Source: Methanoculleus sediminis (GTDB lineage: Archaea; Halobacteriota; Methanomicrobia; Methanomicrobiales; Methanoculleaceae). Taken from it: a stretch of DNA of 41,778 bases. Below are positions 35,244 through 37,235 of the stretch, one piece after another. The first letter of the stretch is position 1. Every line of letters starts with the position of its first letter. The stretch is taken from the NCBI RefSeq assembly GCF_001017125.1, contig NZ_JXOJ01000003.1, positions 145,121 to 186,898 on the forward strand. The letters run 5' to 3'. A model generated the notes under the pieces. That model was not told the DNA's origin, made no database searches, and saw nothing but the letters and a program-made list of their open reading frames with translations. Both the position numbers and the translations under genes were made by a program.

Positions 35244-35504
35244 CTAGTACCGCCGGAAGTCGCTTCTCGGTCTCGGGGGCCGTGCCTCGTCGATCTTCAT
35301 GGTACGGCCTTCGAATACGGTGTTGTTCAGGGCTTCCTTTGCTGCCTCAGCCTCTTCGGGGCTGGACATCTCGACAAACCCGAAGCCTTTGCGCTCGATG
35401 ACTCTGACGTCGTTCACCGTCCCGTACTGGCTGAATAATTCTTTCAGTTGTTCCTCATTTACCGAGTAGGTGAGGTTACCGACGTACAGCTTGTTGCTTT
35501 CCAT
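35244..35504 (-). CDS. RRM-type RNA-binding protein
   Basis: An 86-residue single RRM protein. RNP2 is LYVGNL (6-11) and RNP1 KGFGFVEM (39-46), with the aromatic residues for RNA stacking present. The short basic tail EARPPRPRSDFRRY is like that of cold-responsive RNA-binding proteins. It is probably an RNA chaperone. GAGGAT precedes the ATG. A possible small gene at 35532-35789 may be co-transcribed. Confidence 0.93.
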   Translation of the reverse strand: MESNKLYVGNLTYSVNEEQLKELFSQYGTVNDVRVIERKGFGFVEMSSPEEAEAAKEALNNTVFEGRTMKIDEARPPRPRSDFRRY

Positions 35505-35531: not shown

Positions 35532-35789
35532 TCAAACCTTAATTATCCTTCGGAAGAAAAACCGGAGAGCGGTTTGGAGTCGGCTCCCCCGGTGCGGGAG
35601 CACACCCGCTTGCCGGGGTCGTGCCCGGCAGGGTTGCGGGGTTCCGGAGACCGGATTGCGTCGGGCGGGTTCCCGGTGCCGATCTCCCTGCACCGCCCGG
35701 AGCACCCCGCGCATTCCAGTCTCCTCCCGGAGGATCACGGTTGTGCGGATCTTTCCGGGAACAGATACTTTAATGGTGGCTTGGATCAT
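35532..35789 (-). CDS. Possible small protein upstream of the RRM gene
   Basis: An 85-residue frame starts at ATG 35789 after AGAGGTG. The first 35 residues (MIQATIKVSVPGKIRTTVI...MRGVLRAVQG) look like a real folded protein; the remainder is Arg/Pro-rich and may be out of frame. It ends 27 bases before the RRM gene, as expected in an operon. No family is recognised, and a decayed gene is possible. Confidence 0.3.
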   Translation of the reverse strand: MIQATIKVSVPGKIRTTVILREETGMRGVLRAVQGDRHREPARRNPVSGTPQPCRARPRQAGVLPHRGSRLQTALRFFFRRIIKV

Positions 35790-35800
35790 TGATATACACC
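35786..35800 (+). promoter_or_regulatory. TATA-like element before aIF-1A
   Basis: TTGATATACACC lies about 60 bases before the CTG start of aIF-1A, placing transcription start at roughly 35815 with a leader of about 40 bases. Confidence 0.35.
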
Positions 35801-35852
35801 TCTAGTAAGTATTCGGGCGGACCGCACCGCCGCCTATTACGGAGTTGATTAA

Positions 35853-36167
35853 CTGACGAATACACGAGGAACACAGAACAATAGCGAAGAGATCGTACGA
35901 GTACGATTACCTAAGAAGAGAAATCGGGAGATCTTCGGCCGGGCCGACCTGATGCTCGGGGCAAACCACATCCGCGTCCGCTGCGAGGACGGCGTCACGC
36001 GCACGGGAAGGATCAAGGGCAAGATCAAGAAGCGGCTCTGGATACGCGAAGGCGACCTTCTTATCGTCGTTCCCTGGAGTTTCCAGGACGAGAAGTGCGA
36101 TATCATCTACCGGTACATCAAGCCCCAGGTAGACTGGCTCAAGAAGCACAACTATCTCAGCCAGTAA
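35853..36167 (+). CDS. Translation initiation factor aIF-1A
   Basis: A 104-residue aIF-1A, the archaeal homologue of eIF1A, which binds the small-subunit A site during start selection. The core EEIVRVRLPKKRNREIFGRADLML and CEDGVTRTGRIKGKIKKRLWIREGDLL plus IKPQVDWLKKHNYL is unmistakable (S1/OB fold). The frame opens right after TAA (35850-35852) with CTG, ACG, AAT; there is no ATG, GTG or TTG in the N-terminal part before the internal ATG at 35952. That ATG would remove part of the OB fold. CTG at 35853 lies eight bases after GGAG, so it is the likely start. Confidence 0.9.
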   Translation: MTNTRGTQNNSEEIVRVRLPKKRNREIFGRADLMLGANHIRVRCEDGVTRTGRIKGKIKKRLWIREGDLLIVVPWSFQDEKCDIIYRYIKPQVDWLKKHNYLSQ

Positions 36168-36243: not shown

Positions 36244-36837
36244 TCAATCCGGATTTTGTTCTTTTCGGGAATCTGTAGCGATAGCGGTTGTAATATCCGC
36301 CGCGCTATCGGTATGCACCAGTACGAACGTTCTGCTCACCGACGCCGTTACGCTTGCCGCTATCTGCATGGTGAGCATGATGAGACGCAGGGCATCCTGG
36401 ATCGTTCCCCCTTCCCACATCCCCTGGATGCACTGGTTGGCAATCCTCTTCGTGATATCGTTTCCCAGCACCACGAAGTTGCTCGCCTGCCCCTTTTGCA
36501 TTACCCGCAGCCGGGAATCGACGATCTCGGCGATCACGTAACTCCCCTTCGTAGCGTAGAGCCTCTTCCTCGAAGTCTTCGCCCCCTCCGTCTCGGTCAC
36601 CTCGCCGACGAGCACCCCGTCCCGCTGCGAGACCTTGGCTTTATCGTCCCTGACCCGGATCGTCACCCCAATCTCGCCTGCCCGTTGTGCGAGGTCGCTG
36701 TCGGAGGCGATCGAACCGTCGTAGAGTTCGCGCTCCAGGTCTTCGATGGAGGCATCGTCCCCTCCGAATGCGATCTCCCGCATATCCCCCGCCATCACGG
36801 CGCCCTGTTTTCCGATGAAAGCAATCACAAGCGTCAT
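36244..36837 (-). CDS. DUF2121 family protein (proteasome-like fold suspected)
   Basis: A 197-residue protein of the archaeal DUF2121/COG4079 group. It begins MTLVIAFIGKQGAVMAGDMREIAFGGDD, which resembles the start of Ntn-hydrolase/proteasome-type proteins, and contains ELYDGSI, RKRLYATKGSYVIAEIV and VVLGNDITKRIANQCI. It may be an inactive or specialised relative. I use ATG 36837 (GAGG upstream); a TTG 15 bases earlier is less likely. Function unknown. Confidence 0.85.
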   Translation of the reverse strand: MTLVIAFIGKQGAVMAGDMREIAFGGDDASIEDLERELYDGSIASDSDLAQRAGEIGVTIRVRDDKAKVSQRDGVLVGEVTETEGAKTSRKRLYATKGSYVIAEIVDSRLRVMQKGQASNFVVLGNDITKRIANQCIQGMWEGGTIQDALRLIMLTMQIAASVTASVSRTFVLVHTDSAADITTAIATDSRKEQNPD

Positions 36838-37235
36838 ACCATGAACCCTCAACCCCCGGCACGGGGCACGAAGTTGCGCTCATCCCAACTCTTCCGTACC
36901 CGTATCAATCTGTCGATGCCCCTCCGGATAGCCGCTTCATGCCGGGCCTGCTGCAGTCCGAAATCCACCCCCCGGGTAAGATGCCGGGCACACCTGCGCG
37001 TGAAAAACATTCACAAATCGCAGCAGGCGTATGAACGATTTTCATGCGCACATATATACCGAACTTCAAGGACGCCGTGATCTTCGGGGATTTCCGGATA
37101 TTATGTTTAAAGGTGCATAAAAATACCTGAAATCGTTTATTGACTATTTAGATCAATTAGAATTTGATATTTTACCCTGACATCAATTTTTAGTAAAGAA
37201 TAACTTCATATACTAAAGTGAGAAAATATTCTCTC
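36838..37235. other. Gene-free region upstream of the HAMP gene
   Basis: The right third (about 37090-37235) is markedly AT-rich, unlike its surroundings, and contains TATA-like TTCATATACTAA near 37206. It probably holds the promoter of the HAMP/roadblock unit. The left part has no visible gene. Confidence 0.4.

Follow-up and report, generated by a model that had tools for sequence, protein, structure and literature searches.

A predicted CTG start codon on the gene for translation initiation factor aIF-1A, kept across much of Halobacteriota

Introduction

In bacteria (IF3) and in eukaryotes (eIF1), there are initiation factors that keep watch over the weak start sites of their own genes. A gene of the archaeon Methanoculleus sediminis (Halobacteriota; Methanomicrobiales; Methanoculleaceae) raises the question of whether an archaeal initiation factor could be controlled in the same way. 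The gene encodes aIF-1A and lies in a stretch of 41,778 nucleotides (the window; NCBI RefSeq assembly GCF_001017125.1, contig NZ_JXOJ01000003.1, positions 145,121 to 186,898 of the forward strand), where its reading frame appears to open at CTG. The start codons named in a review of archaeal initiation are AUG, GUG and UUG (PMC7531240). A first-pass annotation of the window had likened the CTG to the start of bacterial infC and had raised the idea of an autoregulatory loop. Here we ask whether CTG is the start, how widely it is kept, whether it is particular to this gene and what it may do there.

Table 1. Coordinates of the aIF-1A start region and its neighbours in the window
Feature	Position	Strand	Evidence
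Divergent neighbour, small single-RRM RNA-binding protein	35244-35504	-	RRM_1, 83.7 bits; ATG start
Conserved block (acagatactttaatggtgg...gatatac), candidate archaeal promoter, A/T-rich part gatactttaatgg	35761-35798	+	22 of 38 positions invariant in 23 Methanoculleus sequences
Possible short hairpin (GGGCGG ... CCGCCGCC) in the presumed 5' leader	35815-35834	+	Weak consensus fold
Extended Shine-Dalgarno sequence GGAGTTGAT	35841-35849	+	Read directly; one mismatch in nine to GGAGGTGAT
In-frame stop TAA adjoining the start codon	35850-35852	+	Read directly
Predicted CTG start codon of aIF-1A	35853-35855	+	Read directly; register and spacing shared by relatives
aIF-1A coding sequence, 104 codons and TAA (36165-36167)	35853-36167	+	NCBIfam, Pfam, solved homologues
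First in-frame ATG (codon 34)	35952-35954	+	Rejected as sole start
Converging neighbour, connectase MJ0548-like N-terminal domain protein	36244-36852	-	PF09894, 189.8 bits; listed start TTG at 36852

Results

The gene and its predicted start site

The product is a member of the aIF-1A/eIF1A family, its conserved core being matched whole and above curated cut-offs: it scored 173 bits against NCBIfam NF003085 (cut-off 92), 129.8 against TIGR00523 (cut-off 102.9) and 74.4 against Pfam eIF-1a (PF01176; cut-off 30.2). Solved homologues are 1jt8, 4mno and 5jb3, with the alignment to 1jt8 running from residue 10 on. The first-pass annotation had placed CTG directly after a TAA, with GGAG eight bases ahead and no ATG, GTG or TTG before residue 34, and this description proved exact. 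GGAG occupies 35841-35844 and is followed by eight bases (35845-35852, the last three being the TAA) and then by the CTG, and the frame holds no ATG, GTG or TTG between that TAA and codon 34 (Table 1). The reference motif GGAGGTGAT is an assumed anti-Shine-Dalgarno complement rather than one read from the 16S gene of this genome.

Upstream of the gene, the 38-base block conserved in Methanoculleus is a candidate promoter by its position and composition. A scan for bacterial-type promoters and terminators returned one promoter-like site and no terminator. The possible leader hairpin has a consensus fold of -3.54 kcal/mol with a covariation term of -0.37 and two-sided changes in 2 of 10 pairs (22 sequences), and the leader RNA had no match in Rfam; we make no claim for the hairpin as a regulatory element.

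CTG stands at a fixed distance from the Shine-Dalgarno sequence

We compared 272 loci (L001-L272), 240 of them distinct from 70 bases before to 60 bases after the anchor, with haloarchaea counted apart. The rule used to call starts returned only start-like codons and so favours finding one; a blind test is free of this bias. Ignoring codons and frame alike, it picks the highest-scoring match to GGAGGTGAT ahead of the conserved core and reads the position 12 bases from the first base of that match. A strong match was present in 174 of the 240 distinct loci, the remaining 66 dropping out, and the fixed-distance position, 3-102 bases from the core, shared the frame of aIF-1A in 156 of these 174. 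The triplet found there was CTG in 115 loci, ATT in 12, ATA in 5, ATG in 4, TTG in 2 and another in 36. As judged by this count, CTG at the fixed spacing is more than chance, about 3 being expected at 1/64.

Of the 36 other triplets, 18 lay outside the aIF-1A frame, and the other 18 lay within it but were not start codons. Eight of the out-of-frame loci (from Methanolinea, Methanoregulaceae and a euryarchaeote) had ATT two bases further on, four had an earlier GGAGGTGTT and six were other chance or shifted matches. At the 18 in-frame loci the site had been outscored by another purine-rich run, which in most cases lay in the tail of the second Methanoculleus copy, and for these loci the start-like-codon rule gave CTG in 13 and TTG in 5. 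In most loci of the order, the register and spacing of the Shine-Dalgarno sequence were the same.

Constraint on the codons ahead of the first ATG agrees with this. Over codons 12-33, 30 Methanoculleus orthologues showed 2670 synonymous versus 660 non-synonymous one-step pair differences, and diversity was 0.307 at the third position versus 0.081 and 0.059. Since this upstream stretch is constrained at the protein level, the ATG at codon 34 is ruled out as the only start. In 21 orthologues sharing one length, the variable tail that follows CTG had 385 synonymous versus 540 non-synonymous differences, and in 6 orthologues of another length it had 18 versus 9; the figures for a same-length stretch upstream of the Shine-Dalgarno sequence were 99 versus 700 and 2 versus 59. 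In 234 loci the N-terminal tail beyond the start amounts to 2909 codons, and not one of these is CTG, CTA, CTC or CTT, so the CTG at the start site is not a stray leucine codon. In 116 of the 234 loci no ATG, GTG or TTG lay between the upstream stop and the conserved core, and gene finders limited to those codons are expected to miss or shorten aIF-1A. Our sequence-based prediction is that CTG is the aIF-1A start codon.

The start is conserved within Methanoculleus

Matches to aIF-1A were found in 33 of 35 Methanoculleus genomes and in all 24 of the most complete ones. Of the 62 matches we examined 45, which included both paralogues, and every one read CTG at the start site. The first-pass annotation had allowed that relatives might carry ATG at this codon and that CTG might be a sequencing error. 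Neither holds: an error is ruled out because CTG is conserved over the genus, and ATG was called at only 6 of the 240 non-haloarchaeal loci. A stop codon immediately preceded CTG in 28 of 30 Methanoculleus orthologues (L001 and L003-L031), L019 and L022 having GAA instead; across all groups, 58 of 234 loci had a stop in that place relative to the called start.

The genome itself has a second aIF-1A copy (L002, G000:C8:694790-695068) with about 76% core identity to the first. It reads GGGGTTGATTAA CTG, with the start directly after an in-frame TAA. At least two aIF-1A matches or fragments were present in 28 of the 35 Methanoculleus genomes.

A weak start codon over much of Halobacteriota

Across the 240 distinct non-haloarchaeal loci, all from Halobacteriota, mutually related rather than independent and with Methanomicrobiales oversampled, the start codon was CTG in 183, ATT in 32, TTG in 13, ATG in 6, ATA in 5 and GTG in 1; CTG, ATT or ATA thus accounted for 220. 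These counts are hand-corrected. The rule alone had given CTG 178, ATT 33, TTG 13, ATA 7, ATG 6 and ATC 3, and six calls were changed, L072, L078, L082, L205 and L214 to CTG and L227 to GTG. The six are left out of the 234-locus counts, and L205 is still among the 41 copies of the 30-genome comparison below. CTG was found in 15 of the 17 non-haloarchaeal families sampled. The comparison with related Methanomicrobiales that the first-pass annotation had proposed therefore finds the weak start kept and, with CTG at 183 of 240 loci over the phylum, the observation is larger than it was first put.

By group (families are given by code), CTG was the start at 7 of 7 loci from other genera of the Methanoculleus family (f1), 3 of 3 in f2, 10 of 10 in f4 and 18 of 18 in f5. 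Family f3 had 4 CTG and 5 TTG among 9, and f6 had 24 CTG, 2 ATT, 1 ATA and 1 GTG among 28; further named loci of close relatives, not included in the counts above, had 25 CTG, 30 ATT and 4 ATA among 59. In 20 of 23 f5 loci examined, an in-frame GTG or TTG lay three codons ahead of CTG, within the Shine-Dalgarno stretch, and could be the start in those loci. Outside the order, CTG was the only codon in f12 (6 of 6), f15 (6 of 6), f22 (4 of 4) and f10, f18 and f20 (one each). Mixed families were f7 (11 CTG and 2 TTG of 13, with CTG at two further loci), f25 (2 CTG and 1 ATG of 3) and f8 (15 CTG, 6 TTG and 5 ATG of 26).

The 26 haloarchaeal loci (families f11, f13, f14, f16, f19, f21, f23 and f24, a grouping that is our own reading) had ATG in 14 and GTG in 11, with one partial locus giving no call. 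Among the haloarchaeal-like loci L276-L301, ATG is the start of one aIF-1A copy and GTG, in most cases, that of the other, in line with their division into two groups on the tree. Because these lineages use ATG or GTG, f9 reads TTG, f17 reads ATG, and f8 and f3 are partly TTG or ATG, the CUG trait is dispensable. A search of viral contigs for the aIF1A of other phyla yielded 33 stretches with the pattern, none of them a relative.

The trait is absent from three control genes

In 30 genomes, 41 copies of aIF-1A (some copies of some genomes being left out) started with CTG in 39 cases, ATT in one and ATA in one. In the same genomes aIF1 started with ATG in 28, TTG in one and GTG in one; aIF2-beta with ATG in 29 and TTG in one; and ribosomal protein gene S28e with ATG in 29 and GTG in one. 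The three controls pooled (n = 90) gave ATG 86, TTG 2 and GTG 2, with starts sought only among ATG, GTG and TTG and taken by eye as the in-frame codon nearest the conserved domain. The controls covered 30 of 33 aIF1, 30 of 32 aIF2-beta and 30 of 30 S28e matches; the aIF1 start lay 22 or 23 codons ahead of the domain match in 30 of 30, and one S28e start (L363) that could be TTG or ATG was counted as ATG. On this comparison, the weak start codon is conserved in aIF-1A as a trait that the three controls lack, and the rarity of CTG starts elsewhere in the genome is judged from these three genes. Searched over the M. sediminis genome, the pattern GGAGNTGATN{2,4}NTG had 34 matches, taken without individual inspection, versus 18 for the reversed pattern. 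In Methanosarcina mazei, ATG is given as the start of 79% of longer genes (PMC11456600).

These results bear on which kind of known system the locus resembles. Like infC, aIF-1A starts with a codon other than ATG, GTG or TTG, and that codon is kept in relatives without being a habit of the genome as far as the three control genes tell. Searches of NCBIfam and Pfam at E 0.001 returned only families of the IF1/eIF1A kind, with no homology to the IF3 family; aIF-1A may work like infC without being a member of that family. Self-control of the eIF1/SUI1 type would call for a weak start on the eIF1 homologue, and aIF1 has ATG in 28 of 30 genomes.

Changes of the start codon along the gene tree

We built a fast gene tree from 136 dereplicated core proteins (out of 266; 93 columns), which is poorly resolved, with 62 of 133 inner branches open. 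On this tree the ATT and ATA copies cluster together, and a CTG copy branches at the base of their group. Another group, with ATG and GTG starts, unites the haloarchaeal copies and L275. Most of the remainder has CTG, with TTG, ATG and GTG scattered. The fewest changes among the classes {CTG}, {ATT, ATA} and {ATG, GTG, TTG} number 13. The ATT/ATA branch consists of L071 and part of L076-L112 (Methanoregula, Methanolinea and relatives). Its ATT and ATA codons keep the spacing from the Shine-Dalgarno sequence or lie two bases beyond it.

Where CTG has been replaced, ATT or ATA stands in 37 of the 240 loci versus TTG, ATG or GTG in 20. Going from CTG to ATT requires two steps, and of the intermediates ATG alone is a start codon; a return from AUG to a weak codon was therefore probably favoured, which speaks for selection on weakness. 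The pattern suggests that the weak start is kept by selection rather than by chance. The infC parallel drawn by the first-pass annotation also gains from it, in that the site is weak over wide lineages and changes among CTG, ATT and ATA.

Discussion

The reading that we find most likely, with a probability of about one half, is a self-limiting loop, in which aIF-1A would be made from a CUG positioned by a strong Shine-Dalgarno sequence at a fixed distance, and selection would keep the weak codon as a control point. The near-perfect Shine-Dalgarno sequence would load and hold a 30S subunit at the site, and the codon check would then set the rate, commitment at CUG depending on the strictness with which codon-anticodon pairing is checked. 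As CUG and the initiator tRNA would pair imperfectly, synthesis of aIF-1A would read out the stringency of the 30S preinitiation complex. With plentiful aIF-1A, acting together with aIF1, CUG complexes would be rejected and synthesis would fall; with scarce aIF-1A, more CUG would be used. The outcome would be a homeostatic loop like those of infC and eIF1, carried by a protein of the IF1/eIF1A family.

Published biochemistry bears on this loop from several sides. In toeprints with Pyrococcus abyssi components, aIF1 is described as making the complex dynamic and aIF1A as reinforcing the effect when aIF1 is present (PMC6237735), so more aIF1A in the presence of aIF1 should lower CUG use and close the negative loop. 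In the same account, aIF1A without aIF1 stabilises the initiator tRNA (PMC6237735). Discrimination against non-AUG starts in archaea is credited there mainly to aIF1 (PMC6237735), and it counts against a self-limiting loop that this better-documented discriminator keeps AUG. The N-terminal tail of yeast eIF1A is reported to favour suboptimal starts (PMC5756025), by which token the sign of any feedback could go either way. A loop in which aIF-1A limits its own synthesis is plausible.

Of the other explanations, the one that survives best, unlikely as we judge it, is that CUG fixes a low dose of aIF1A without any feedback, the strong Shine-Dalgarno sequence and the weak codon together tuning the level. 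Such damping would explain the kept weakness as well as the changes among CTG, ATT, ATA and TTG; haloarchaea manage without a weak codon, and nothing in the sequence comparison demonstrates a response. However, a weaker Shine-Dalgarno sequence or promoter would be a simpler route to a low dose than a site with one mismatch in nine, and damping leaves unexplained why aIF-1A, a start-selection factor, has the trait when aIF1, aIF2-beta and S28e lack it.

Control by other components is a doubtful option. Here CUG would make aIF1A synthesis answer mainly to aIF1 (or to the supply of aIF2 or initiator tRNA) rather than to aIF1A itself, keeping the ratio of aIF1A to aIF1. Complexes on non-AUG mRNA were destabilised by aIF1 in Sulfolobus solfataricus (work cited in PMC6237735), and the AUG start of aIF1 (28 of 30 genomes) is what one would expect of a controller that stands outside the loop; the joint action of aIF1 and aIF1A in the toeprints (PMC6237735), however, may make this option hard to separate from the self-limiting loop. 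Finally, it is highly improbable that CTG is not the start: GGAGTTG does hold an out-of-frame TTG from which a frameshift might lead into the gene (GTG or ATG in some relatives), and the f5 loci have their in-frame GTG or TTG, but relatives do not keep the out-of-frame codon (L256, for example, reads ...GAGGAATATCACTG) whereas they do keep the codon at the fixed distance, and the constraint upstream of codon 34 and the uniform CTG of the genus dispose of a sole start at that codon and of a sequencing error.

If the self-limiting loop is placed on the tree, a broader joint reading follows, which we hold tentatively and would put at somewhat under even odds. CUG would have been taken or kept by aIF1A in the common ancestor of non-halophilic Halobacteriota as an ancient archaeal homeostat, its use reporting the stringency of the preinitiation complex and feeding back on the dose of aIF1A, independently of bacterial IF3 and eukaryotic eIF1. 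It would have been carried through duplications (as in both Methanoculleus paralogues), would have drifted to AUU or AUA in one branch with its weakness kept, and would have been lost when haloarchaea moved to leaderless mRNAs. On bacterial leaderless mRNAs CUG is reported to be unable to replace AUG (PMC4611024), and Haloferax volcanii is described as having many leaderless mRNAs (PMC7531240); by analogy, loss of CUG in haloarchaea would fit a leaderless habit. In H. volcanii, aIF1A is reported as essential and present in two copies (PMC3828320), and it is in the group of this species, the haloarchaea, that the CUG start has given way to ATG or GTG.

If the loop is real, aIF-1A would be a third self-policing case, on a third non-homologous factor, and its conserved CUG would be a natural genetic assay for the stringency of archaeal start-codon selection. 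Methanosarcina belongs to the same phylum as Methanoculleus. Ribosome profiling of M. mazei assigns CTG starts to about 5% of 314 unannotated small open reading frames (PMC11456600); CTG is given as a start there too, but on unannotated small frames, and a text search of the main text of that paper gave no mention of an initiation factor or IF1A. Among the open-literature matches listed, a scope that lies outside subscription papers and databases such as UniProt, we found no report of a CUG or other non-canonical aIF1A start; annotators may well have placed the CTG start already.

Three known systems offer the closest comparisons. In Streptomyces, sigR has a GTC start that is described as repressed by IF3 (GTC in 32 of 34 cases, GTT in 2; PMC5472188); it resembles aIF-1A in having an extended Shine-Dalgarno sequence and a very rare start codon that is conserved within a genus, but encodes a sigma factor and is confined to one genus, whereas aIF-1A is an initiation factor with the trait over much of a phylum. 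Eukaryotic eIF1 (SUI1) is described as autoregulating through an AUG in poor context (PMC5756025, PMC6237735) and is likewise a start-selection factor with a suboptimal start site of its own; there, however, the weakness lies in the context and not in the codon, and eIF1 is homologous to aIF1, whose start here remains AUG. The third system is infC, which starts with AUU in Escherichia coli and AUC in Streptomyces and is described as autoregulated by its product, IF3 (PMC5472188). Both infC and aIF-1A are initiation-factor genes with a non-canonical start codon, but IF3 is not homologous to aIF1A and acts in another domain of life and on another initiator complex, and feedback has been demonstrated for infC whereas aIF-1A is known here from its sequence. 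The type of control is familiar from infC and eIF1; new to us are the factor that would carry it, the domain of life in question and the range of lineages with the trait.
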